Source of the DNA: Elusimicrobiota bacterium
GTDB taxonomy: Bacteria; Elusimicrobiota; Elusimicrobia; UBA1565; UBA9628
Assembly: GCA_003151975.1 (NCBI GenBank)
Contig: PLZD01000029.1
Span: 1 to 37,936, forward strand
DNA length: 37,936 nucleotides
Direction of reading: 5' to 3'
Below, piece after piece: positions 6,790 through 29,578 of this stretch. The translations under genes and the position numbers were made by a program. The first letter of the stretch is position 1; every line of letters starts with the position of its first letter. The notes below the pieces were generated by a model. It ran no database searches. It saw nothing but the letters and a program-made list of their open reading frames with translations, and was not told where the DNA came from.

Positions 6790-6805
6790 CCTTGGCGAGT
6801 CAGCG
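6784..6805. terminator. Bidirectional stop-codon hairpin
   Basis: A perfect 7-base stem, CGCTGAC / GTCAGCG, with an 8-base loop lies between two convergent genes. Each arm holds the TGA of one gene (6787-6789 on plus; 6800-6802 on minus). There is no T-run on either side, so it may act as an RNA 3' end structure or roadblock more than as a classical intrinsic terminator. Confidence 0.45.
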
Positions 6806-7228
6806 CCGGATTGAGCGAGCCTGCTCGAGGGCCTCGATGCCCTCGCGGCGGACGGCTTCGGCCGTTGCCATGGCAGTCTTGAGCTCGGCGTTCATTCTTC
6901 GGCGCTCGTCCTCCTGCGCCGTCTTGAGACGAGCGAGCTCCTGCTCGGCCGTCTCGAGGCGCGACTGAAGCGCCGCGGCTTCGCGCCGCCAGGATTCCAG
7001 CTCGGCGCCTTGGCGCGCGATCACGGCCTCAAGCTTGCGGCGCGCGGTCTCCTGAACGCGCAAGGTCTCCTCGAGCTGGGCGATGAGCTGCGCGCCCGAG
7101 TCGGCCTCGCGCTGAAAAGCGCCGGTGCGCTCCTCGAGCTCGCGCAGCTGCGCGCTCAATTCGCGCACGCGGTCCTCGGAACCGGGAGAGGCGTCCTCCT
7201 TTCTCCGCGGAGCCATCGGCCTCGCCAT
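6800..7228 (-). CDS. Coiled-coil protein, third gene of operon
   Basis: 142 residues from the ATG at 7226-7228, almost wholly heptad-type charged helix (RVRELSAQLRELEERTGAF and onward), with no membrane segment or signal peptide. Its first half is paralogous to the N-terminal part of the upstream gene: both contain the pattern ELEERTGxFxREAxSGAxLIxxLExTLRxQ. The start codon overlaps the upstream TGA (TGATG), with AAGGAG just before it as a ribosome binding site; a GTG one codon earlier is an alternative. No catalytic motif is visible. A structural or scaffold role is inferred only from composition. Confidence 0.75.
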   Translation of the reverse strand: MARPMAPRRKEDASPGSEDRVRELSAQLRELEERTGAFQREADSGAQLIAQLEETLRVQETARRKLEAVIARQGAELESWRREAAALQSRLETAEQELARLKTAQEDERRRMNAELKTAMATAEAVRREGIEALEQARSIRR

Positions 7229-8304
7229 CACTCCTTGAAGGCCTTGCCGAGCCGGTTCCAGATTCCGGCTTCGTCGCGGCGGCCGTCAGCGGATGGCTGA
7301 GCCTTCGCGGGAGACCGCGGGGGCTCGGGCTCGGGGGCGGGCGCGGCTGCGATCGAGGAAAGCGCTTCCTCGGCGTTGGTGACCGCCGATTGGATCTCAG
7401 CCATGATGCGATGGCGCTCCTTTTCCTTGGCGGCATGAGACTCATGCCGCTGGGTCGAGAGCTTCGACTCGGCCTCCCAATGCGCGTACAAGCGCTGCTT
7501 CTCGGAAGCCAGCTGGGCGCGCGCCTGCTCCGCCGCGTCGTCGGCCGCCGCGGCCCTCTCGGCCTCCCGCTTAGCGGATTGGAACGACTGAGCCGCAGCC
7601 TTCTCGGACTGCTCCTGCGCGGCGGCGCTCTTGCGGGCCAGCTCGCCGGCAACGCGCGCCTCGGCCGCCGCGGTCGTGGCCTCCTCGCGGGCGGTCTTCA
7701 ACGCGACGCGCAGGGCCTCCGCCTCCGTATTGGTTTTCAGAAGGTTGTTTCTCAACGCGGTCAGCTGGGCTTCGGCGGCCTCCGCCGCGCTCTTGCCCTC
7801 CGCGCGGATGCGGTCGCGCTCGGCCGTCAGGCCGCGCAGCTCCTCGGCGAGGCGCTGGGCCTCGGCCTCTCGGCGGGCGGCTTCCTGCACGGAGGTCCGG
7901 TGCGATTCCTCGCGCAGGTGCTCGAGCTCCTGGATGTTCTCCTCGCGCGCGGAAAGCTTCTGCTCGGTCTTTTGCAGCCGGTCTTTTTGAAGCGTCGCCT
8001 CGCCGCGCCAGCGCTTGATTTCCTGCCTCTGCTTTTCGATGGCGGCCACGAGTTGGGCGCGCGCTTGGTCCTGAGCGCGCAGCGTCGCTTCGAGCTCCGT
8101 GATGAGCGCCGCGCCCGAGCTGGCCTCCCGGTGGAACTGGCCCGTGCGCTCCTCGAGTTCGAGGGCATGGCGCGTGAGATCGGCCAGCCGATCTTCGAGC
8201 TCCTTGACGGCGCGCTCGTCGCGCGGGGACGGCGGGTGCTTGCGCTCGGGCGGCGCTGCCGGTGAAGCGTCCTGCTTGTGATCCACGGCGAGTTCATCGT
8301 TCAT
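7228..8304 (-). CDS. Long coiled-coil protein, second gene of operon
   Basis: 358 residues, almost continuous alpha-helical coiled coil rich in Ala, Glu, Arg and Gln, from about residue 30 to 300, ending in a Pro/Ala-rich linker (APAPEPEPPRSPAKAQP) and a short tail (GIWNRLGKAFKE). The segment at about 40-75 is duplicated in the third gene of the operon. The ATG overlaps the TGA of the first gene by four bases (ATGA), indicating translational coupling. There is no signal peptide or membrane helix, so it is probably cytoplasmic. I do not recognise a named family; resemblance to tropomyosin- or SMC-like proteins would be compositional. Confidence 0.8.
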   Translation of the reverse strand: MNDELAVDHKQDASPAAPPERKHPPSPRDERAVKELEDRLADLTRHALELEERTGQFHREASSGAALITELEATLRAQDQARAQLVAAIEKQRQEIKRWRGEATLQKDRLQKTEQKLSAREENIQELEHLREESHRTSVQEAARREAEAQRLAEELRGLTAERDRIRAEGKSAAEAAEAQLTALRNNLLKTNTEAEALRVALKTAREEATTAAAEARVAGELARKSAAAQEQSEKAAAQSFQSAKREAERAAAADDAAEQARAQLASEKQRLYAHWEAESKLSTQRHESHAAKEKERHRIMAEIQSAVTNAEEALSSIAAAPAPEPEPPRSPAKAQPSADGRRDEAGIWNRLGKAFKE

Positions 8305-8981
8305 GATCGGTCCCCTTTGCTTTCCTCTTCTTCGTCAGTCATCGCCATCGCGGCTTGGCTATCCGTCAAAAGGCTTTGGTGGAGCTTCAGCGCGCCGGCC
8401 AGGCCGGCGCGCAGGCCCTGCAGATCGGTTCCAAGCTCCTTGGCCTTCGCTTCGTAATCGGCCTTCAGACGCTCATGAGCGGATGCGCGATCCTCTTCCT
8501 GTCGGTGGTACCAAGCTTCCTTCTCGCTCAGCTGTTCGAGCTTGAGCTGGGCGGCGGCCTCCCATTGGGTGAGCTTCTCGACGGTGAGGCGGGCTGCGGT
8601 CTCGTCCTGCCGCAGGCGTTCGAGAAGCAGCTGCGCCGACTCCTTGAGCTTAGCCGCCTCCAACTCGCGCGTCACGAGGCCGCCGATGTCGAGCTTGCCG
8701 GCCAAGGCGCGCAGGGCGTATTGTTCCGTGACTTCGTAGTAGCGCTTGCGCTCGTTGGGCTGCGGGGCAACGGCCTCGCCTTTGAGCTCACGGCATTCCC
8801 GTTCGATGTTCGCCCGGGCCTGCCGCTCGATCTCGAGCTTCTGGGTGAGCTCCTCGGTGAGCCGCTCGAGCGAGTGGAGCCGCTCCAGCGCCCAGCGCAA
8901 GGTCATGCGGGCGGTGTTGAGATTGTCGATCTCGTCGATCGCTTCGGGTTCCGTCGGGGCCCGGCCCCCCGATTTATCCAT
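8301..8981 (-). CDS. Coiled-coil protein, first gene of operon
   Basis: 226 residues from the ATG at 8979-8981 (MDKSGGRAPTEPEAIDEIDN). An acidic N-terminus is followed by coiled-coil segments from about residue 30 to 65 and 110 to 190, interrupted by a less helical stretch with NERKRYYEVTEQYALRALAG. No signal peptide or membrane segment. The shorter start is chosen because a well-formed promoter and a palindrome directly precede it; the upstream in-frame ATG at 9047 would place the promoter inside the gene. It leads a tightly coupled three-gene operon. Function unknown. Confidence 0.75.
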   Translation of the reverse strand: MDKSGGRAPTEPEAIDEIDNLNTARMTLRWALERLHSLERLTEELTQKLEIERQARANIERECRELKGEAVAPQPNERKRYYEVTEQYALRALAGKLDIGGLVTRELEAAKLKESAQLLLERLRQDETAARLTVEKLTQWEAAAQLKLEQLSEKEAWYHRQEEDRASAHERLKADYEAKAKELGTDLQGLRAGLAGALKLHQSLLTDSQAAMAMTDEEEESKGDRS

Positions 8982-9022
8982 AGGGATATCCCTTATATAA
9001 CCCTTGTGTGTTACATTTGCAA
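8982..9022 (-). promoter_or_regulatory. Promoter and palindromic operator of the coiled-coil operon
   Basis: On the minus strand: TTGCAA (9017-9022), 17-base spacer, TATATA (8994-8999), then the perfect 12-base palindrome AGGGATATCCCT (8982-8993), directly followed by ATG. The palindrome would span the transcription start, a position suited to repressor binding. This is the best sigma-70-type promoter in the window. Confidence 0.65.
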
Positions 9023-9129
9023 GCCCTAAACGGTCAGGAATTGTCAACCGGTACAGCCGGCCCTTGTCAAATCAGTTAAGAATGTTACCGAAGGATGGCG
9101 TTGATTGACCGGATGTCCTCCGTTTGTAG

Positions 9130-10443
9130 TTAGTTTGATCCTTGCGCGAGAAAAGCTTCCCGTGCGTTGATCCGTTCGTAGCGTTCGAAGGCCGGACGCG
9201 TCGCCGGCTCGAATTGCGGCCCTTCAAGAGTACGCCGTTTGTAGAACGGCGGGCGGCCAAAGGGCGATGGCGAGAGCCACGCGGGCTTAGGCGCCTTGGT
9301 GCGCATCAACCAGATTCGATTGAGCTCGCTTTCGATGGCGGCCGACAGCGCGAACGGATCCAGTTGCCGGCGCGCGTTGAGCAACTTCGCGCTTCGATCC
9401 GGAATCGTCAGCCGGTGCTTGGTGACGCGATCCAAAGGCGTCGCGGGAGCGTCGTAGCGGCGCTTGAGCTTTGATCCGACGCGCGTCTTGGACAGCAGCC
9501 TGACCGAAGGCTGGAACAAATTCTGGAACAACCGCAGCTCGCCGCGGTAGAGATTGTTGATCGCGCCCATCGCCTGCGCCGTGTCGTAGCGAGCGCAGCC
9601 GAGCAGCTTGCGCACATGCGTCCAGTTCTTCTGCTCGATATGGGCGTTGTCGTCTTTCTTGTAGGGCCGCCCGCGTGTGAATTGGATCTTGGGCTTTGTC
9701 TGGCAGTACTTCAGCAGATGAGCGTTGATGAATTCCGAGCCGTTGTCTGAATCGAGGCCGAGCAATGGGAATGGCAGTTCTCGACGGATATCGTCGATAG
9801 CTTGACAGATGCCGATCTGCCCCTTGCCCAGCACGCAGCGCCGCTCGACCCAGCCCGTAAAGATGTCGGTGAGGTTGAGGGTGTGAGCAAAAAGGCCCTC
9901 GGCGCAGTCGCCCGAATGGGAAACCAAGTCGACTTCCATGAACCCGGGACGGTCGACATCCCACGAGTCGGTCTTGATCGGGATTTGATGTTTGAGCAGC
10001 AAGCCGGGACGCGTCGTGCCGTAGATGCGGCGCCGGAGCAGGAACTTCTTCGGTTTGAGCCGGCGATCGATCGTCGGCGCGCTGATGTTGAGCAGGAGCT
10101 GTTCTTCTTGCGCGCTGAGCGTGAAGCGCTCGCGGATGGCGGGCAGCCAGAGAGCGATTGCCGGTTTGAGCCGTTGGCCGCACAGGTAGCCCGATGCCGA
10201 CCACGTCGCTTCGAGGATTTCGAGGAAGCGATGGTCGGCGTACGGCGAGGTCCTTGGCGCACGAGCCGGCTTGGCGTCGCCGGGTTTGGGCCCGTTAAGC
10301 AGGCGAAGCGCGTGTTTGCGGTGGCAGCGATACGTCTTGCAGAATTCGTCGAGTATTCGGCCCTTGTCGGCCTTGCTGGTCTTCAGCAAGTGATAGCGCT
10401 CGTAGACTGTTTTCATGTATTCCCACTTGGCCAACGGGCTCAT
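9130..10443 (-). CDS. DDE transposase, integrase-core type
   Basis: 437 residues. An N-terminal helix-turn-helix region (KADKGRILDEFCKTYRCHRKHALRLL, about 24-50) precedes a retroviral-integrase-like core. The catalytic triad is visible as D172 in MEVDLVSHSGD, D233 in LDSDNGSEFIN and E270 in NAHIEQKNW, with the D-35-E spacing typical of this fold. The motif LLKHQIPIKT before the first Asp is shared with a widespread group of bacterial integrase-catalytic-region transposases. No frameshift or internal stop is seen, so the enzyme may be active. A promoter inside the right end would read from 10535 leftwards. Confidence 0.92.
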   Translation of the reverse strand: MSPLAKWEYMKTVYERYHLLKTSKADKGRILDEFCKTYRCHRKHALRLLNGPKPGDAKPARAPRTSPYADHRFLEILEATWSASGYLCGQRLKPAIALWLPAIRERFTLSAQEEQLLLNISAPTIDRRLKPKKFLLRRRIYGTTRPGLLLKHQIPIKTDSWDVDRPGFMEVDLVSHSGDCAEGLFAHTLNLTDIFTGWVERRCVLGKGQIGICQAIDDIRRELPFPLLGLDSDNGSEFINAHLLKYCQTKPKIQFTRGRPYKKDDNAHIEQKNWTHVRKLLGCARYDTAQAMGAINNLYRGELRLFQNLFQPSVRLLSKTRVGSKLKRRYDAPATPLDRVTKHRLTIPDRSAKLLNARRQLDPFALSAAIESELNRIWLMRTKAPKPAWLSPSPFGRPPFYKRRTLEGPQFEPATRPAFERYERINAREAFLAQGSN

Positions 10444-10480
10444 CCAAGACGCCTCCCAAAGGCGCGTTATATCGCGCCGT

Positions 10481-10500
10481 TCGGTAACATCTTAAGTGAG
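10481..10500. repeat. Internal second copy of the IS terminal motif
   Basis: TCGGTAACATCTTAAGTGA repeats the right tip of the IS (TCGGTAACATTTTAAGTGA at 10516-10534) 35 bases further inside. It is probably a second transposase-binding site. The left end has only one copy. Confidence 0.6.
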
Positions 10501-10543
10501 TTAACGGCCCTTCGCTCGGTAACATTTTAAGTGATTCAATACG

Positions 10544-15873: not shown

Positions 15874-17259
15874 ATGGAACGCACAGAGATCCGCGCCGTC
15901 CTCGAGAAGGGAAAGCCGGGCGAAGAAATCACGATCGCCGGCTGGATCAAGTCTCTTCGCCAAAGCAAGACGGTCGCGTTTTTGCACCTCAACGACGGAT
16001 CGACCTTCGACTCCGTGCAGGTCGTCGTCGGCGAGGGACTCGCCAATCGCGGCCAAGTCCTCAAGCAGATCACCGGCGCCGCCGTGCGCGTGCGCGGCAA
16101 GTTGATCGCCTCGCCCGCCAAAGGCCAGGCCGTCGAGGTCGAGCCCTCCGAGATCGAAGTGCTCGGAGAATGCGACGCGAGCTCGCCGGTGCAGAAGGCG
16201 GGCACCTCGCTTGAATTTCTGCGCACGGTGGCGCACATGCGCCCGCGGACGAATACTTTCGGCGCGGTCTTCCGCACGCGCGCGGAGCTCTCGTTTGCCG
16301 TGCACGAATTTTTCCGCAATCGCGGCTTCGTGATGTGCCACTCGCCGATTCTGACGACCTCGGACTGCGAAGGCGCCGGCGCGATGTTCCAGGTCAGCAC
16401 CATGGACCTCGAGAAAATGCCGCGGCGTCCCGACGGCAAGATCGACTTCGAGAAGGATTTCTTCGGCGAGAAGACCGCGCTGACCGTCTCCGGACAGCTC
16501 GAGGCCGAGATCCTCGCCTTGTCGCTCGGCAAGGTCTACACCTTCGGCCCGACCTTCCGCGCGGAAAACTCGACGACGCCGCGCCACGCCGCCGAATTTT
16601 GGATGATCGAGCCCGAGATCGCCTTCGCGGACCTTAAGGACGACATGGCGGTGGCCGAGGCCTTCGTCAAACACATGATCGAGCACGCCTTCAAGAACTG
16701 CGCGCGCGACCTGCAGTTCTTCGACGAGCGCATCGAGAAGGGCCTGCGAGGAAAGCTCGAGGCCGTGGCCAAGGCGGAGTTCGCGGTCATCGAGTACACA
16801 GAGGCCATCGAGATCCTGAAGAAGTCCGGCAAGAACTTCCAATATAAAGTCGAGTGGGGCACCGACCTGCAGACCGAGCACGAGCGCTACTTAACGGAAG
16901 AATACGCCAAGCGCCCGGCTTTCGTCATCAACTACCCGCTCTCGATCAAGCCGTTCTACATGTACTGCAACGACGACGGCAAGACGGTCGCTTGCATGGA
17001 CCTGCTCGTGCCGCGCGTCGGCGAGCTCATCGGCGGCTCGCAGCGCGAGCACCGGCTCGACCGGCTTGAGACGCGCATGAAGGCGCAGGGCCTGGACGTC
17101 GAGCACTACCGCTGGTACTGCGACCTGCGCCGCTACGGCACCGTGCCCCACGCGGGCTTCGGACTCGGCTTTGAGCGCATGCTGATGTACTGCACCGGCA
17201 TGGAGAACATCCGCGACGTGTCCTTGTGCCCGCGCGTGCCGGGCAACGCGAAGTTCTAA
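15874..17259 (+). CDS. asnS: Asparaginyl-tRNA synthetase
   Basis: 461 residues, normal full length. The N-terminal OB-fold anticodon-binding domain (ITIAGWIKSLRQSKTVAFLHLNDGS, about 13-110) is followed by the class IIb catalytic domain: AHMRPRTNTFGAVFRTRAEL, class II motif 2 TFRAENSTTPRHAAEFWMIEPEIAF, and motif 3 [22 protein letters not shown]. The motif 2 TFRAENSxTxRHxAEFWMIEPE pattern is typical of AsnRS and argues against AspRS. It charges tRNA-Asn with asparagine in the cytoplasm. Its last 300 bases are duplicated downstream at 23307-23606, and its last 31 at 25556-25586. The TAA overlaps the TAG of the convergent methyltransferase. Confidence 0.96.
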   Translation: MERTEIRAVLEKGKPGEEITIAGWIKSLRQSKTVAFLHLNDGSTFDSVQVVVGEGLANRGQVLKQITGAAVRVRGKLIASPAKGQAVEVEPSEIEVLGECDASSPVQKAGTSLEFLRTVAHMRPRTNTFGAVFRTRAELSFAVHEFFRNRGFVMCHSPILTTSDCEGAGAMFQVSTMDLEKMPRRPDGKIDFEKDFFGEKTALTVSGQLEAEILALSLGKVYTFGPTFRAENSTTPRHAAEFWMIEPEIAFADLKDDMAVAEAFVKHMIEHAFKNCARDLQFFDERIEKGLRGKLEAVAKAEFAVIEYTEAIEILKKSGKNFQYKVEWGTDLQTEHERYLTEEYAKRPAFVINYPLSIKPFYMYCNDDGKTVACMDLLVPRVGELIGGSQREHRLDRLETRMKAQGLDVEHYRWYCDLRRYGTVPHAGFGLGFERMLMYCTGMENIRDVSLCPRVPGNAKF

Positions 17260-19757: not shown

Positions 19758-20511
19758 GCGCGCGCGGACCGCTCCCGCGGATTTCGACGAGATCCATTAT
19801 CACTACGAGGAGAGCATCGATCCCCTCGTCCAGTCCGTCGGGGGGGAACCCCATGATTACTATCTCCAGCTCAAAGCCAACGAGCTTCTCGCGCATCTGG
19901 GCCGCCTCGGGGCGGACCCGTCGCGGGCGCGTGCCCTCGACGTGGGCTGCGGGACGGGGCGCTTCGTCGAACTGCTTCACGGCCGGCTGCGGGAGATCAA
20001 GGGCGTCGAGCCCTCGCGAGGCATGCTGGAGGCGGCCCTGCGCCGCGGACTGCCCGAGGGCACCTTCCTGCGCGGTCACGCGGAGAGCGTCCCGTTCGCG
20101 GACGGCGCGTTCGACGCGGTGTTTTCGAGCTGCATCTTCCATCACACCCCGGCCGCAAGCCACGTCCGCATGGCCTCCGAGATGGCCCGGACGCTCAAGC
20201 CAGGGGGCTGGCTTTTCGCCTTCGAGCACAACCCGCTCAACCCGCTGACGCGCTGGATCGTCTCGCGCTGCGCCGTCGACGTGGGGGTGACCTTGCACCG
20301 CGGCGGGCGCCTGGAACGCGTGTTCCGCGACGCCGGGCTTTCGCGCGTGCACACGCGCTACATCGTTTTTTTTCCGAGCCTGCTCAAGGCCTTGCGGCCT
20401 CTCGAGCCTTTTCTACATAGCGTCCCGTTGGGCGGCCAGTACTACGTCTGCGCCCAAAAAGCCGCCCAAGCTCGATTCAGAACGCCGTTTTTCGATCCCG
20501 GAGCCGTTTGA
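19750..20511 (+). CDS. SAM-dependent methyltransferase, TTG start
   Basis: 253 residues. ARALDVGCGTGRFVELL (motif I near 60), IKGVEPSRGMLEAAL and FDAVFSSCIFHHTP show a Methyltransf_11-type enzyme. The TTG at 19750 is preferred because GGAGGAG lies seven bases upstream and it overlaps the end of the epimerase gene, consistent with coupling; the frame upstream of it is read through the epimerase and lacks homology. It belongs to the GT2-epimerase-methyltransferase operon. Its last 70 bases overlap the 3' end of the convergent membrane protein gene. Confidence 0.85.
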   Translation: MAERARTAPADFDEIHYHYEESIDPLVQSVGGEPHDYYLQLKANELLAHLGRLGADPSRARALDVGCGTGRFVELLHGRLREIKGVEPSRGMLEAALRRGLPEGTFLRGHAESVPFADGAFDAVFSSCIFHHTPAASHVRMASEMARTLKPGGWLFAFEHNPLNPLTRWIVSRCAVDVGVTLHRGGRLERVFRDAGLSRVHTRYIVFFPSLLKALRPLEPFLHSVPLGGQYYVCAQKAAQARFRTPFFDPGAV

Positions 20512-22910
20512 GATTTTCGGCGCAGCCAAAAATCCGCGCGCCGCAGGCGCAGCCAAAATAGGCCCGAAGCCGTCCACATGATCGCGGTGCAGGCGGCAAG
20601 CGCGCATAAGAGGAGATCCGAGATCGTGTGCGGGACGGGATAAGCCCACAGATTGGGCAGGGCCGCGAAGGGGAGCGCGCCCAGCAGGACGGCGGAGGGC
20701 AGGACCGCGTCCCCGGCCGCGAGGCCGAAGAGCTTGACGCAGAGCCCGGCGTGCGCGAACGCTCCCAGGAGGACGAGCAGCCAGACTCCGAGCGGGACCG
20801 CGGCGAGATACGAACCGATCATCGCGGCGATGGCCCACGGCTTGCGCGCGAGATAGAGCTCGGCCATGGCGAGCTTGTGGGACGAGGCCAGTTCCATGAA
20901 GACGCGGCGCATCACCTTGTCGTCGAGTCCCATGCGCCACTGGTTGGTCCAATGCGAAGTCGCCTCGCTCTCGCTGGCGATGACGTGATGGCGGATCAGG
21001 TAGTCGGCGGCCGCGGCGAAGCCGACTCCGTCTGGGGTGCGATGCATGTCGATGCCTTGGGCCTCGATGAGTCCGGGCAGGAACTCGTAGACGCCCAGAT
21101 ACGCGGAATGCCACAGAGAGTGGCCCGGAGTGATCTCGTCGGTGAAGTACGCGATGTTGAGGGCCGACTTCATGTATTGGGCGTGCGCGACCATCACGGC
21201 CAGGAGCGCGAGGACCGGCCAGGCGGCCGCGCGCTTAACGAGCGAGGGCCATTGGCGGGAGAGCGCCGCCAGGTCCGCCCGCCGCTCCCAGAGCGCGAGG
21301 CCGGCCGAGAGCGAGACGAGATAGAGCAGCATCCATGCCGCCGAGCCGCGGATCTTCATCGCGAAGACCAGAACCGCCGCCTGGAGCAGCGCCAGGAGCA
21401 CGCCCGTCGCCGTGGGACGGCGCCGCCGCGCCAGCAGAAAAGCGAAATGCAGAGCGGGGGTGAGGCCGAGCGCCGAGCCGTGGCGGATGCAGGAGAAGGT
21501 CGGCATGCCGTCGCTGAAGATCCCCGAGCGCAGCTCGAGCGAAAAGCAAAGAAGGCCGGCCAGCAGGGCGGCCTGCGCCGCGAGGTCGTCCTTGAAGGCG
21601 AGAAGGAAGGCCGCCGCGCTCGCGCCTAGAATCAGGAAGAACGTCCAATACATCGCCTCGAAGCGGAGGCCGAAGAGGCGGAACCCCGTCTCCACGAGGT
21701 CCGTGTAGCCGAGGTCCTGGTAGAGCGCGGTGACGATGCCTCCGTTGGAGAGGCTGCGGCCGCGCTGGTCGGGCCAGAGCTTGGACGCCGATGAGATCGC
21801 CGCGTTGAGCCGGTCCGCGTCGTGATCGTTCCTCGCGAGCTCGGGCTCGCGGAGGCCCGAGGCCCCCGTGTTCCAGACCTCGAGGAGGCGCGAGTGCACG
21901 CTCCCGTAGCCGATGTAGCCGTCGTTGAGCCCGTAGACGACATCGGAGAGGGCGATGGCGATCGCGTTCTGCTCGTCCTCGGGACCCGTGGTGCTCGCGT
22001 GGTCCAACCCCCGGCTCACTCCGGCCCAGAAGACGGCCAGGACCAGAGCCGCCGCCAGGACGGCCGCGAACGCCGATCGCGCCTCCCGCAGAAGGATGAA
22101 GGCGACGGCGGCGGACGCGAGGATGAAGAGATAGACCCAAAGCGCGGAACGAGCCGGGGCCGCGGGCTCGTCGCTCGCGGGAGCCGCGCTCGCGGCTGGA
22201 GTACTTGACCAGGACAGCAAGGGGCCGGAGACCGTGCGCACGCGCAACTCGAGGCGGCCGGGCGCGAACTTGGCGCTCTCGATGCCGTCGGGCAGAATGA
22301 TCGAGCGGCTGAAATCCTGGGGCGGCCGCTGCTGGCGGCCGACGAGCCGCAAGATGCTCTCGACGAGCGGCGCCGGCAGGGGGACGCCGTTGATCGCGGC
22401 GCGCTTGACGAGGATGGCGCCCTTGCCGTCGGCGGCGCGCAGCTCGCACTCGGCCGCGGCGGAATTCTCCACGGAGAGCAGACCCGCCCAGCGCTTAAGC
22501 GGCGAGGCGGCGCCGGCGCCCAGGGCCTTCCCCGCGCCGCCGCCAAGCCTCAGCACGGCGTCCACCGCCACGAGATTTCCCGCCTCGAGCCGGACCCGGG
22601 CCGATTTGAAGACCACCGGTTCGGTCGAGTTCTGCTTGTTTTCGATCCAGTCCCGCAGCGCCGCGTTGAGCTCGTCCTGGGTGAACGCGACGGTCTTCTC
22701 GACCGCGCGGGAGACAGCGGAGCCGGTCTTGTTGGCGCTCAGGGCCAGCAGTGCGCCGTCGACGCGCCGCGCCATCGCGGCTGCGGCCTCGTCCATGGGC
22801 CGCGACGGGGCGGCGATGCCTCCGCCGAGGGCTTTGAGAAGGCCCAGTGCGAAGAGCAGCGCGGCCAGCGCCGGCGGCAAGTTTCTGAGGATGGGCCAGC
22901 CCAGTTTCAT
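20442..22910 (-). CDS. DUF2993-like domain fused to a large polytopic membrane protein
   Basis: 822 residues from the ATG at 22908-22910. An N-terminal signal anchor (LPPALAALLFALGLLKAL) is followed by a domain at about 60-235 with FTQDELNAALRDWI, INGVPLPAPLVESILRLVG and DFSRSIILPDGIESAKFAPGRLELRV, resembling DUF2993/LmeA-like lipid-associated periplasmic proteins. An Ala/Pro linker leads to about ten membrane helices with large loops, GT-C-like or an uncharacterised membrane family. I see no frame disruption at the junction, so it is one fused gene as given. Function unknown; the neighbouring cluster suggests envelope glycolipid. It overlaps the convergent methyltransferase by 70 bases. Confidence 0.65.
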   Translation of the reverse strand: MKLGWPILRNLPPALAALLFALGLLKALGGGIAAPSRPMDEAAAAMARRVDGALLALSANKTGSAVSRAVEKTVAFTQDELNAALRDWIENKQNSTEPVVFKSARVRLEAGNLVAVDAVLRLGGGAGKALGAGAASPLKRWAGLLSVENSAAAECELRAADGKGAILVKRAAINGVPLPAPLVESILRLVGRQQRPPQDFSRSIILPDGIESAKFAPGRLELRVRTVSGPLLSWSSTPAASAAPASDEPAAPARSALWVYLFILASAAVAFILLREARSAFAAVLAAALVLAVFWAGVSRGLDHASTTGPEDEQNAIAIALSDVVYGLNDGYIGYGSVHSRLLEVWNTGASGLREPELARNDHDADRLNAAISSASKLWPDQRGRSLSNGGIVTALYQDLGYTDLVETGFRLFGLRFEAMYWTFFLILGASAAAFLLAFKDDLAAQAALLAGLLCFSLELRSGIFSDGMPTFSCIRHGSALGLTPALHFAFLLARRRRPTATGVLLALLQAAVLVFAMKIRGSAAWMLLYLVSLSAGLALWERRADLAALSRQWPSLVKRAAAWPVLALLAVMVAHAQYMKSALNIAYFTDEITPGHSLWHSAYLGVYEFLPGLIEAQGIDMHRTPDGVGFAAAADYLIRHHVIASESEATSHWTNQWRMGLDDKVMRRVFMELASSHKLAMAELYLARKPWAIAAMIGSYLAAVPLGVWLLVLLGAFAHAGLCVKLFGLAAGDAVLPSAVLLGALPFAALPNLWAYPVPHTISDLLLCALAACTAIMWTASGLFWLRLRRADFWLRRKSQTAPGSKNGVLNRAWAAFWAQT

Positions 22911-23219
22911 CGGTTCAGGGTATGCCGTCCATACTGTGGTGGCACGAAGATTGCCATCGCCTTGATCGTGGGTGACGGCAAGCTGAACCGACTGCTGAAG
23001 CACTTGGGATTGCCGGCGGATTTCCCGAAGACAAAGCCATCGAGGGCGCCTCCTGGCGGAAGCTTAGATGAAGAGGGGCAGCCTGATTCCGGCCTCGACG
23101 ACTGGGACGGCAACGACGAGATGCCGCAAGACCGAAGCGGCGTAGTGGCCGGCGTACGCCCGAGTCTTGCGAGGGCGATCCCTGGAACGGGGATTGGGTC
23201 ATTCACCCAACAATTATAG
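22908..23219 (+). pseudogene. IS91-like transposase, C-terminal remnant
   Basis: A reading frame with no start and truncated on the left, reading HRFRVCRPYCGGTKIAIALIVGDG, then LNRLLKHLGLPADFPKTKPSRAPP, ending at TAG 23217-23219. The Cys-x-x-x-CysGG zinc-ribbon end, the helix ending LGLPadxP and the PxRxPP tail are typical of the C-termini of IS91-type (Y2) transposases. Everything N-terminal is missing. It begins exactly where the minus-strand membrane protein starts, so the element end may have supplied part of that gene's upstream region. A hairpin follows within its last codons. Confidence 0.6.
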
Positions 23220-23292: not shown

Positions 23293-23306
23293 TTGTCTGC
23301 ATTTGC

Positions 23307-23606
23307 TGCAACGACGACGGCAAGACGGTCGCTTGCATGGACCTGCTCGTGCCGCGCGTCGGCGAGCTCATCGGCGGCTCGCAGCGCGAGCACCGGCTAG
23401 ACAAGCTCGAGACCCGAATGAAAGCGCAGGGCTTGGACGTCGAGCACTACCGCTGGTACTGCGACCTGCGCCGCTACGGCACCGTGCCCCACGCGGGCTT
23501 CGGACTCGGCTTTGAGCGCATGCTGATGTACTGCACCGGCATGGAGAACATCCGCGACGTGTCGCTGTGCCCGCGCGTGCCGGGCAACGCGAAGTTCTAA
23601 GCCGCG
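23307..23606 (+). pseudogene. Direct repeat R2: duplicated asnS 3' end
   Basis: Headless 98-codon asnS terminus (from [14 protein letters not shown] to the stop) with 290 of 300 bases identical to 16966-17265. Eight of the ten mismatches fall within about 36 bases, and they change only one residue (Arg to Lys). It cannot make a functional synthetase because motifs 1 and 2 are missing. It abuts the 3' end of the secreted-protein gene at 23608. Confidence 0.95.
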
Positions 23607-25615: not shown

Positions 25616-25710
25616 CGGCCTTGACGCGCCGCGGTTTGGGGGGCAAACTCGGGGATGTGGAAGGACGCGCGGACGAAAAGCGGTCTAGAACTTCTTGCGA
25701 GGTCGTGGCG
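25616..25710 (+). repeat. Gene-start element with functional gene (promoter and first codons)
   Basis: TTGACG (25621-25626), 17-base spacer, CAAACT (25644-25649), seven bases, GTG GAA at 25657. The first 35 bases equal 10544-10578. The part after CAAACT resembles 2693-2750 and 27380-27430, in DNA and in translation. This is the only copy whose start leads into a long gene on the same strand. Confidence 0.65.
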
Positions 25711-27342
25711 AGAACTCGATGGCTGCTGTTCGCCGCATTGCTTATAGGTTCGGCCGGATTTCTTCAGCCGGTCGAATACGAGAACACCAAAAGCCGCTGG
25801 ATGCTGCTGCGCTCGATCGTCGACGAGGGCCGGCTCAATATCGATTCTTATCAACGATACACCACCGACAAATCGGTTTTTGGCGGTCACTATTATTCCG
25901 ACAAAGCGATCGGCTTGCCCCTGCTTGCCGCGCCGCTCTATTGGGCGTTGCGCCGCACGTTGTTCTCCAGGGAAGAATCCCTTTCCGCGGCCACCATACT
26001 GGCCGACCCGCGGGCTAGATACCTGGTCAGAGTCGCGACGGTCAGCTTGCCGTTCGCTTTGCTGGGCCTATTGATATTTGATCTTCTGATTTCACTCGCT
26101 GTCTCCGCGAGGCGGGCCCTCTGGTCGGTGCTGGCGTACGGTTTCGGCACAATCGCTTTGAGCAACGCCGTGCTCTTCAGCGGCCACCAGACGGCGGCCT
26201 TCTTTTCCTTTCTTTCGTTTGTCCTTCTTTATCGCTCGGCCCACGGAGACAAGGACCGCGGCCGCGCCATAGCCGTCGGATTCCTGGCGGGCCTTTGCGC
26301 CGGACTGGGCGTGCTGTGCGACTACATCGCGGTGTTCGCGGCGGTGCCGCTGACCGTCTATGCGCTGACGTCGCGAGTCGATCGCCGCGCCAAGCTCGCG
26401 TTTGTCTGCGGCGCCGCGCTTTGCGCCGGCGTTTTGGGAGCGTACAATCAAGCTTGCTTTGGTTCCCCACTGAGCCTCAGTTACGCGCACCTCGAGACCA
26501 GGCCCTATGACCCGACCGCCGAGCACGGAGACATGCTCTTCGGCCGGCCGAGACTTTCCATTATCCTGCTGCTCCTGGGCTCCGCCTCGAAAGGCCTCCT
26601 GTTCATTTCACCGGTCTTAATCTACGCCGTCATGGGCTTTCGACTGTTGCGGCGGAGAGCGGATCTGCGGCGGGAATTCAACCTGCTCTGCGTCGTCCCG
26701 GCGAGTGCCTTGCTTGTTTTGAGCGGCTTCGACGGTTGGCACGGCGGAGCATGCTTCGGACCTCGCTACTTGGTCGCGATATTGCCGTTCCTCGCCCTGC
26801 CCATGGCCTTCGCGGCCGACGGCGGGCCGTGGTTCCTGCTGCTGTTCGGACTATCGGCCTTCCAGGTCGGGTGCGCCCAATTGGGCTGCCCGCACTTGCA
26901 CGCGGACATTTATAATCCGATCGCAGATTTCATCCTGCCGCTCATGTCCCAAGGAGTCGTGGCATACACATGGCTGGGCAAGACCGGCATCGTCGGTCAT
27001 TTGGCCGGGGGAATGCTTCAATACGGCATCGCGGCGGTGTTGGCCGCGCTCGCTTTCAACGGCCTGCCGAGAATCGAGGGTATGAAGCTTCCGACAGGAT
27101 GGAAATGGTTCATGGGCGCGTTTGCGCTCTACATCATCGTCGTGCTCTGCCTCTTTCGAACCGAAAGCCGCAACGTGGTCCGTTGGCGCCGCGCCCAGGC
27201 GCTGCATGAATTCGCGTCCGCGACCTTATCTGCGGAGATGGAGAGAAAGGCGCGTCTGGAGGTGTCGTCGGACCGGGCCTCTTTTGGGTCTCCAGGGCTC
27301 ACCGACACGACCTCGAAAGTTTTCCCAGAACCCGGTCCTTGA
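25657..27342 (+). CDS. Polytopic membrane protein, GT-C glycosyltransferase-like
   Basis: 561 residues from GTG 25657, which stands seven bases after the -10. A charged N-terminus (VEGRADEKRSRTSCEVVART) precedes about eleven membrane helices. After helix 1 comes EYENTKSRWMLLRSIVDEGRLNIDSYQ, then DKSVFGGHYYSDKAIGLPLLAAPLY; the GHYYSDKAxGxxLLxxP block recurs in a family of PMT/ArnT-like putative glycosyltransferases. A second possible GTG start at 25705 would remove the leader. Donor and acceptor unknown. It is flanked by direct copies of the start element (25616 and 27351). Confidence 0.75.
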   Translation: MEGRADEKRSRTSCEVVARTRWLLFAALLIGSAGFLQPVEYENTKSRWMLLRSIVDEGRLNIDSYQRYTTDKSVFGGHYYSDKAIGLPLLAAPLYWALRRTLFSREESLSAATILADPRARYLVRVATVSLPFALLGLLIFDLLISLAVSARRALWSVLAYGFGTIALSNAVLFSGHQTAAFFSFLSFVLLYRSAHGDKDRGRAIAVGFLAGLCAGLGVLCDYIAVFAAVPLTVYALTSRVDRRAKLAFVCGAALCAGVLGAYNQACFGSPLSLSYAHLETRPYDPTAEHGDMLFGRPRLSIILLLLGSASKGLLFISPVLIYAVMGFRLLRRRADLRREFNLLCVVPASALLVLSGFDGWHGGACFGPRYLVAILPFLALPMAFAADGGPWFLLLFGLSAFQVGCAQLGCPHLHADIYNPIADFILPLMSQGVVAYTWLGKTGIVGHLAGGMLQYGIAAVLAALAFNGLPRIEGMKLPTGWKWFMGAFALYIIVVLCLFRTESRNVVRWRRAQALHEFASATLSAEMERKARLEVSSDRASFGSPGLTDTTSKVFPEPGP

Positions 27343-27350
27343 TCCCGCCC

Positions 27351-27430
27351 TCGACGCGTGCCGGTTCGGGCGGGAAACTCAGAGACGTGGAACGCGCGAA
27401 CGAACAAAGGAGCGCTAGAATGTTCTACGG
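27351..27430 (+). repeat. Orphan gene-start element
   Basis: TCGACG (27351-27356), 17-base spacer, GAAACT (27374-27379), seven bases, GTG GAA at 27387, then codons VERANEQRSARMFYG. It begins nine bases after the stop of the preceding gene and runs into the stop codon of the convergent MFS gene. No gene follows on its strand. Confidence 0.55.
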
Positions 27431-29578
27431 AGTCTTCGGCTCGCGCTTGCGCTGTTCCTTGGTGAAGGCGATCCAAGGAGAGATCAGACGGATGGCGGCC
27501 TGCACACTGATCGCGACCGCGGCGATGAACATCGCCGTCTTGATCGAGATGCCCGTCAGCACGAAGCCGTAGACGAGCGTGGAGATGATCGAGGCGATGA
27601 TCCCGACGAAAGACTCGGCGGCCAGAACCTTGTTGACGTCCTGGTCCTTGTACTCGCCCAAGGCCTTCTGCTGGAGTCCAGAGGCGGTCAGCGAGCCGAA
27701 GCCCGTCACCAACGCCTGCAGGCCGTAGAGCAGAAGCACTCCCGCCAGCGACGGCCACGCCATCATGACGAAGAAGAGCGGGGCCTCGAGCGCCGCCAAG
27801 ATGAAGAACGGCTTGAGCATCCCTTCTTCCGTCTTGAATCCGAACTTGGCCATCAATTTGCGCGCGGGGCCGATTAGGGCCGCGGCCGCGATCGAGCCGA
27901 TGCTGGAAAGCACGACCATGAAGGAGAAGTAGCCCATCGGCGTGCTGGTCAGGCCCTTGATGAACCAGCCGAGCACGGGTACGCCGAGCAGATGGTTGGC
28001 CGCGGGATGCGTCTGGATGATCTTCTCGGCGTAGTCGGGCAGGACGTTGAAGATCAGCGGGTCGGAGAAGAGCGAGTTGACCAGCGAGAGCAGGACCATC
28101 ACGCGGAGAAATTTGTTTTTCCAAAGCAGCTTGGTTCCTTCCACGAGAGCCGCGCCGAGTCCCTTGAGCGTGCCCTTGAAGCCCTTCTTCTCGGCCGGCG
28201 GGCCGGTCGTCGGCGCCGCGGCGTCGGCCTTGCGTCCGCCGAACATCCGCACCGTCGCCCAGATGAGGCCCGCCGTCGCGGCGGCGCCAGCGTAAATTCC
28301 GTAGATGACCGCGCCCCCGACGCCCGTCTTGCCGAAGAAATCGTGGATCAGCGAGATGTGGCCCGCGATCGCGGGCGCGATGATCGCGATCGCGCTGGCC
28401 AGGAAAGTGAGAATCGCGTTGGCGCGCGTGCGCTCTGCCGGCGTCACGCTGGGATCGCCCATGATCCGGGCCATGCCCTTGCCCTCCATCATGACCGAGA
28501 TGCCCTGGAAGTAGGATTGCGCGGCGAAGAGCAGGGCGAGAAGTCCCATCGAGACCGGCATGCTCATCACTCCGGTCGTGAAGAACACGACGGGCACCAG
28601 CGCGAGAGCTCCGGCGCGGAACAACATGCCGCGCGTCAACCAGCGCTTGGGGCCTTCCTCGGCTTTCTTGGCGAAGAACGGCAAGGTGAGGTAGCTGATG
28701 CCCTGCGCGGTCCAGTGCGCGATGCGCGCGATGGTGCGATTTTCTTTCACGAGCGCCGCGACGGCGGCCGCGTTATTGGCGCGGTTGTCTTTGTGCTCGT
28801 TGAGCGAGTTCTTGGTGAGCGACGAGATCAGGAACGGCAGGCCGACCATGTACATCTCGAAGCCGAAGAGGAAGAAGCCCTCGCCCAAGACGTAGCGCCA
28901 GAACGATTTGTTGCGCTCGGGCTCGGCGAAGACCTGCGTGAAGCCGCCCTTGGCGGCGGGGACATCTGCCGCGGGCTTGGAATCGCCCTGGGCGGCGGGC
29001 TTCTCGAGACTGGAGGACCGCGGCGTCGTCGCCACGGGCTCTTGAGGAACCGAGCCGAGAGATTCGGCCTTCTTCTCGCCGAACTCGGCCTTGAGCCCGG
29101 CGACTTCGCCGTTGACCTTGCCGAGGTCGGCGACGCGCGACGCTCTGGGTTCGGCTTGAAATCCTTTTTCGATGCCGCCGAACTCGGGCACAGAGGTCTG
29201 GGTTTGCGCCTGCGGCTGGGACGGAAGGATGAGATTGAGCGCCGAGTCATCGAGAGATGGGACCGCCGTCTCGACGATTCCCGCAGGAAGCTGGAGCGAG
29301 GCGGCCTGCGTCTGAAGCCCTTGCGCGCCGGGAATGACGCCCGGCAAATTGACCGCGAGCTGGCTTCCGGAAGGAAGTTTGAGCAGGCCGGTGACGTTGA
29401 TCCGGTCCGTGAGGCCCGTCAGCGATCCTATGTTGAGAGTCGGCGCGGAGGCCCGGATCGGAGAGGAAAGGTGAAGTTCTAGGACGCGCCCTTCGGCCGC
29501 GAAGGCCTCTGGTCCCGGCGAAACCCATATTAAGGAAAAGCAAACTAGCGCCGCCGCGGCACGCCGCGCGATTCTCAC
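27425..29578 (-). CDS. MFS transporter with secreted-type N-terminal extension
   Basis: 717 residues from GTG 29576-29578. A signal-peptide-like start (RRAAAALVCFSLIWVSPGPEAFAAEG) is followed by about 190 residues of Pro/Ser/Ala-rich sequence (LNIGSLTGLTDRINVTGLL and onward), and then an MFS fold of about twelve helices from FWRYVLGEGFFLFGFEMYMVGLPFLIS near residue 225. The central loop is the charged segment ADAAAPTTGPPAEKKGFKG. Substrate unknown. If the N-terminus is exported, the first MFS helix would enter from the outside, so the topology is unusual unless the first segment is not a cleaved signal. CATAAT lies six bases before GTG. A fragment of a paralogue lies at 23236-23292. Confidence 0.8.
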   Translation of the reverse strand: MRIARRAAAALVCFSLIWVSPGPEAFAAEGRVLELHLSSPIRASAPTLNIGSLTGLTDRINVTGLLKLPSGSQLAVNLPGVIPGAQGLQTQAASLQLPAGIVETAVPSLDDSALNLILPSQPQAQTQTSVPEFGGIEKGFQAEPRASRVADLGKVNGEVAGLKAEFGEKKAESLGSVPQEPVATTPRSSSLEKPAAQGDSKPAADVPAAKGGFTQVFAEPERNKSFWRYVLGEGFFLFGFEMYMVGLPFLISSLTKNSLNEHKDNRANNAAAVAALVKENRTIARIAHWTAQGISYLTLPFFAKKAEEGPKRWLTRGMLFRAGALALVPVVFFTTGVMSMPVSMGLLALLFAAQSYFQGISVMMEGKGMARIMGDPSVTPAERTRANAILTFLASAIAIIAPAIAGHISLIHDFFGKTGVGGAVIYGIYAGAAATAGLIWATVRMFGGRKADAAAPTTGPPAEKKGFKGTLKGLGAALVEGTKLLWKNKFLRVMVLLSLVNSLFSDPLIFNVLPDYAEKIIQTHPAANHLLGVPVLGWFIKGLTSTPMGYFSFMVVLSSIGSIAAAALIGPARKLMAKFGFKTEEGMLKPFFILAALEAPLFFVMMAWPSLAGVLLLYGLQALVTGFGSLTASGLQQKALGEYKDQDVNKVLAAESFVGIIASIISTLVYGFVLTGISIKTAMFIAAVAISVQAAIRLISPWIAFTKEQRKREPKTP

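Follow-up and report, generated by a model that had tools for sequence, protein, structure and literature searches.

Coiled-coil operon of an Elusimicrobiota genome as a possible membrane-held scaffold for envelope machinery

What use might a bacterium have for three overlapping genes that encode little but coiled coil? The question is raised by a 37,936-nucleotide stretch of Elusimicrobiota DNA (the window; contig PLZD01000029.1, our C63, from a source genome of 4.64 Mb in 68 contigs), in which three minus-strand genes run from 8981 to 6800 and neighbors overlap by a few bases, in ATGA and in GTGA/TGATG (Table 1). The initial annotation had described three overlapping genes, and re-reading of coordinates and overlaps bears this out; we regard the operon as real. 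Its further proposal, a hetero-oligomeric scaffold, is also our best guess. In the form that we favor, the three proteins of the operon would build a cytoplasmic coiled-coil scaffold, attached to the membrane, that may organize envelope machinery, most likely that for surface polysaccharide, a reading that we consider quite possible if a little short of probable.

Table 1. Features of the coiled-coil operon and its upstream region, in window coordinates
Feature	Position	Strand	Remarks
Gene 1	8301..8981	-	short protein (226 aa) of coiled-coil family A, starting at ATG 8981
Conserved A head of gene 1	8637..8981	-	about the first 115 residues
Gene 2	7228..8304	-	358 aa; long helix predicted, then a disordered linker and a short helix at the C terminus
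Motif C in gene 2	7951..8211	-	from sequence comparison
Amphipathic C-terminal tail of gene 2	7231..7266	-	from hydrophobic moment; kept in L062
Gene 3	6800..7231	-	143 aa from GTG 7231, or start at ATG 7228
Motif C in gene 3	6932..7183	-	from sequence comparison
Perfect 12-bp palindrome	8982..8993		touches the gene 1 ATG; no evidence of function
Promoter-like hexamers TTGCAA-17-TATATA, weak	8994..9022	-	8/12 consensus matches, own count

We take the three ORFs to be real genes because the set recurs with third-position-biased divergence in contig JACRDS010000092.1 of Elusimicrobia bacterium NC_groundwater_1678 (locus L062), which has the same three genes in the same order. Identities are 51% for gene 1 (193 aligned residues), 61% for gene 2 (353) and 58% for gene 3 (131), nucleotide differences are most frequent at third codon positions, and gene 2 has a dN of 0.28, a dS of 1.27 and thus a dN/dS of about 0.22. 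Genes 1 and 2 of L062 lie one base apart, genes 2 and 3 overlap, and the set adjoins a histidine ammonia-lyase-like protein (named by eye). The L062 homologue of gene 1 aligns from ATG 8981, so the upstream TTG at 9047 is unsupported as a start. A failure of the genes to stay together elsewhere would have spoken against the initial proposal; on examination, they are conserved together in a second genus. Since one further genome, G231, is apparently the same as that of L062 (same proteins), the full set has so far been seen in two genera, g1 and g12, of the same family, two genomes being a minimum because the 17 genomes with motif C (see below) were not each checked for an adjoining gene of family A, the family of gene 1.

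Genes 2 and 3, annotated as sharing a motif, are identical at 50 of 106 residues (47%, E 4e-21). Of 334 phylum genomes, 17 contain this motif C at E ≤ 1e-4; they belong to 4 of 98 genera, and every one of them to the family of the window. Gene 1 had been called unrelated in sequence, with which its best E value against gene 2, 1.1, agrees; a shared origin of the A and C heads was likewise considered and rejected at a profile–profile probability of 1.5%. A related arrangement is found in contig G000:C18, where a "D" protein of 624 aa has a short C protein of 133 aa as its partner. Gene 2 matches the former in its C-terminal part (33/82 residues, E 7e-6, partly low-complexity) and gene 3 the latter (38/123, E 3e-11, including a common C-terminal stretch), and because of these resemblances genes 2 and 3 look like a diverged D–C pair downstream of an A gene. 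D–C pairs or D–membrane–propeller fusions are also present in the family of the window at L201, L203–L207, L255–L257 and L266, often in the vicinity of rpsB-like genes and sometimes of gmd-like ones, an adjacency that we do not take as functional evidence because it may be plain synteny.

The coiled-coil character of the proteins is seen in their hydrophobic periodicity, which peaks at 3.5 residues in all three, with a power at this period of 0.36, 0.38 and 0.70 for genes 1, 2 and 3 compared to shuffle means of 0.17, 0.13 and 0.16; gene 1 is the weakest case, as the largest of 300 shuffles (0.40) exceeds its observed value. The structure model of gene 1 (mean pLDDT 88, 57-row alignment) has helices at residues 21–71, 75–93 and 99–225, and that of gene 2 (mean pLDDT 78, 4-row alignment) has one helix at 29–315, the linker, and a helix at 348–354, both models being helical nearly throughout, in support of the near-pure coiled coil first annotated. 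At 1.5 Å per residue the 287-residue helix of gene 2 would, by arithmetic, be about 43 nm long. By periodicity and by the gene 1 and 2 models these proteins are predicted extended coiled coils, one of the marks of filament-forming coiled-coil-rich proteins. Filament formation is not predictable from coiled-coil content alone (PMC7002697), and for this reason the fibre of the initial reading is no more than a candidate. A fold search with the gene 1 model gave no match at E values up to 10. The gene 2 tail has a hydrophobic moment of 0.65, which 2.4% of shuffles reach, is retained in L062, and from its sequence may bind membrane.

The region upstream of gene 1 had been read as a good promoter followed by a palindromic operator. 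The promoter fared poorly: the hexamers match the consensus only in part (Table 1), and a promoter scan with a threshold of 9/12 returned none; the corresponding region of L062 contains, as judged by eye, TTGAAA-16-TATAGT at about the same distance from the gene. The palindrome does exist and does abut the ATG, and it is control through it that finds no support. The window holds 24 perfect palindromes of at least 12 bp where 23.5 are expected, a search of the 4.64 Mb genome for this one yielded its single exact site and no other, and it is absent upstream of the gene 1 homologue in L062. We rejected the operator reading on these grounds. An insertion sequence (9081–10526) stops 100 bp upstream of the gene 1 ATG; it comprises a 437-aa transposase-like ORF and 18-nt inverted ends (9081–9098 and 10509–10526, 83% complementary), and one copy was found in the genome.

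The initial statement that no known family is recognized holds for Pfam and NCBIfam, where every match shown for the three genes lies below its curated cut-off (of the 33 Pfam matches of gene 3, 25 were displayed). Genes 1 and 2 have at most one such match each and gene 3 has many weak coiled-coil matches; weak SMC-type matches of genes 2 and 3 lie far under the cut-offs, and the same two databases revealed no ATPase, hinge or DNA-binding domain in the three proteins. Among PDB sequences the best match was to UPF0335 coils (E 0.012), viral contigs gave 31 and 4 pattern matches of which none is a relative, plasmids gave no match for genes 1 and 2, and among the open-licence full texts listed we recognized no account of this coiled-coil family. 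The family was seen here only in Elusimicrobiota, a phylum restriction that is provisional because occurrence outside was checked only by the viral scan, the plasmid scan (genes 1 and 2) and a one-pattern scan of contigs.

Judged by homology, gene 1 is no orphan; it is a short member of coiled-coil family A, which is linked to the envelope (see below) and which its profile detects at E ≤ 1e-5 in 117 of 340 phylum genomes and 42 of 100 genera, only the best candidates per genome having been scored. Gene 1 carries the A head, matching the profile with an E value of 5.1e-39 (the profile includes gene 1 itself), and on its own it matched 26 of 37 relatives at E ≤ 0.05. The head follows the pattern ..N.DTARM.LRWALERL.. 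and then ..YY...E......AGK.D...L..; among 17 members found by homology, M1, A24, L28, W30, E33 and D98 are invariant, and N20, T23, R29, A31, L32, R78, Y82, E86, G95 and L102 nearly so. Further relatives were collected with one peptide pattern, TA[RK][ML][AT]LRWA, across genome contigs (254 stretches, 122 relatives, best 80 listed), a scan that selects for these residues and makes their invariance in the resulting alignment, A4, one of construction. Most of the named ones among the best 80 of the 122 are Elusimicrobiota metagenome assemblies, and about 15 are titled only "bacterium". The A proteins called are between 194 aa (L062) and 2957 aa (L211) long, with a constant head and a variable rod, gene 1 being shorter than the other complete ones except its L062 homologue, and the window genome has at least two further A genes (L042, 1133 aa; L202, 1166 aa). 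A tree of 78 A heads, built on few columns, places the window and L062 together with support of 100/99. The A gene at L061:5092-7011 points away from two neighbors, a short gene and one that looks MreB-like by eye.

Paired coiled-coil genes are the rule in family A. A frequent partner, B, is a second coiled-coil protein of about 220–340 aa that reaches E ≤ 1e-12 in 59 of 334 genomes; the window genome has no match at this threshold, and genes 2 and 3 occupy its place. Among the best 80 of the 122 relatives, B (at least 50 bits) is present at 32 A loci and lies immediately downstream of A in 29 of the 55 with at least 1.5 kb after A, a position that is therefore not universal. Homology between A and B, at 56% in a profile comparison but over generic coil, was not accepted. 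Wzz or export genes are found at 26 of the same best 80 loci, in four gene orders: A-B-TM2-export-Wzz-Wzy (e.g. L099), export-Wzz-A-TM/CBM_48-Kelch (L111, L119), A-B-TM/propeller-B-x-Wzz (L072), and A-A′-AAA ATPase with divergent Wzz (L064, L065). The other 54 show no such gene, many contigs being short. At the export loci Poly_export/SLBB, GNVR, Wzz and AAA_22 score above their Pfam cut-offs and Wzy_C below, CBM_48 is above in L111 and at the cut-off in L119, and Kelch is above. In L111:7120-12125 and L119:10981-16303 a single-TM CBM_48 protein directly follows A and precedes a large protein, Kelch-repeat-rich in L111.

Wzz is a low-copy domain (found in 72 of 119 genomes, mostly with one or two matches). 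Of the 17 genomes for which both are listed, 9 have a Wzz within 15 kb of a listed A, for 0.31 expected by random placement, and the other 8 have the two apart, one of the 17 (G011) being scored as a miss because no A place was printed; these counts, like those of loci, are not independent since loci and genomes are related to one another. The A-head tree requires the export label to change 7 times or more on supported branches, a count that short contigs inflate, and the window's branch stands outside the export-linked ones. The window has no export, Wzz or B gene, its 18 proteins scanned with Pfam lack export and Wzz domains, and the genome's two Wzz loci lie on another contig (C53) with no A, B or C matches. 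Elsewhere in the window four ORFs with several predicted membrane helices (949–2592, 20442–23003, 25621–27342 and 27425–29578) have no Pfam match at E ≤ 1e-4, and 23296–23600 is a 305-bp near-copy (95.7%) of 16955–17259, 6 kb away, the 3′ end of a class II (Asp/Asn/Lys-type) tRNA synthetase gene at 15874–17259.

Other proteins join either the A head or motif C to one and the same module, a membrane helix plus a propeller-like part. A single 799-aa ORF, L263:920-3319 (G016:C95), combines an A head (56 bits, aa 1–81), coil, a membrane helix (533–553) and propeller matches of 17 and 32 bits within aa 569–759, weak but repeated, and by this predicted architecture ties family A to the membrane. L057 (G016) and L058 (G010) consist of motif C, coil, a membrane helix and the same propeller-like domain, and in L072 a stand-alone gene for one membrane helix and the propeller (matches of 18 and 42 bits) sits between the two B genes of an A-B operon. 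"Propeller" is our own reading of the repeats: the domain has no Pfam hit, and NCBIfam gives only a weak Vgb-type lyase match for L072. Its side would be periplasmic, as a single membrane helix follows the coil. Membrane ends recur in the C/D group as membrane helix plus propeller, as a C-terminal membrane helix (L203–L207) or as the amphipathic tail of gene 2.

What we observe is homology, gene order, fusion architectures and predicted helices; co-assembly of the three proteins, their membrane attachment, a scaffold role and any polysaccharide link of the window copy are what we infer. Gene 1 would supply a conserved head with a rod, and genes 2 and 3, paralogous rods with a common motif, are probable partners of one another and of gene 1. 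The assembly is probably kept at the cytoplasmic side of the inner membrane by the flexible linker and amphipathic tail of gene 2, and there it would organize envelope machinery, most likely for surface polysaccharide. The three genes standing together in two genera, and the pairing habit of family A, support a scaffold, and an envelope scaffold is favored because relatives adjoin or are fused to envelope parts. The link to polysaccharide is favored by the Wzz/export loci in their four gene orders, and for the window copy it is weakened by the lack of an adjoining export, Wzz or B gene and by the placement of the genome's Wzz elsewhere. Against the favored reading also stand the 54 A loci that show no Wzz or export gene, though often on short contigs, the 8 genomes in which Wzz and A lie apart, and the missing Pfam support for the propeller.

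A general intermediate-filament-like cytoskeleton that serves cell shape or division and is not specially connected with polysaccharide, its export neighbors reflecting gene order conserved within some clades, would account for long rods of such variable length behind a fixed head, for the many A loci that have no export genes and for the A gene of L061 that diverges from a neighborhood with an MreB-like protein (by eye). One inherited gene order does not, however, explain four export gene orders together with the membrane-helix/propeller fusions, and the repeated change of the export label on supported branches, if inflated by short contigs, points the same way; we judge this alternative somewhat unlikely.

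Two further explanations appear far less probable still. Several long coiled-coil families act on DNA, and together with the weak SMC-type matches of genes 2 and 3 this might suggest a set for chromosome or plasmid segregation, SMC- or KfrA-like; against it stand the lack of ATPase, hinge and DNA-binding domains among the Pfam and NCBIfam matches, the lack of plasmid relatives of genes 1 and 2 and the membrane helices of relatives, which make it very improbable. Equally doubtful is a decaying or mobile-element-borne remnant, a truncated A with diverged C genes beside an insertion sequence. The closeness of that element to gene 1, the shortness of gene 1 and the occurrence of the whole set in only two known genomes would fit; yet another genus, where the insertion sequence is absent, preserves both the short form and the complete set at 51–61% identity, gene 2 has the dN/dS given above, and viral contigs, and for genes 1 and 2 plasmids, hold no relatives.

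Beyond the membrane-held scaffold that we prefer, a broader proposal can be put forward that we rate as unlikely: Elusimicrobiota may own a cytoskeleton-like system of modular coiled-coil rods whose heads, A, B, C and a related D, can be exchanged. These rods would cluster polysaccharide-export complexes from inside and, by way of a membrane helix, be joined to a domain in the periplasm, propeller-like or carbohydrate-binding; the window operon would be a compact version that combines A and C heads. Should a scaffold of the favored kind exist, a phylum seen mainly through metagenomes would possess its own coiled-coil structure devoted to the envelope and tied to surface polysaccharide. The case would bear on the open question of how bacteria place polysaccharide-export machines, and heads A, B and C offer concrete handles for interaction and localization tests.

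Relatives of gene 1 occur in Wzx/Wzy-type export loci (Poly_export/SLBB, GNVR/Wzz with AAA domain, Wzy), unlike the window copy, which no export genes adjoin; A and B coiled coils are not known as standard parts of such loci. A functional parallel is HmpF of cyanobacterial motility, also a phylum-specific coiled coil tied to a surface machine whose activity is linked to polysaccharide production (PMC9239167); HmpF acts on type IV pilus motors, whereas we came across no pilus genes at those A loci that we looked through. Mad20/23/25/26 with MamK and Mad28 are likewise interacting coiled-coil proteins of one cluster, organizing magnetosome structure, again a functional parallel only; the same source describes magnetotactic Elusimicrobiota without the chain-formation Mad proteins (PMC12748827). 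Crescentin and the cyanobacterial CCRPs Fm7001 and Slr7083, compared by description, are likewise near-pure coiled coil, lineage-restricted and filament candidates (PMC7002697). From these the present family differs in having two to three different coiled-coil genes per operon, with heads that are found fused to membrane-helix/propeller modules.
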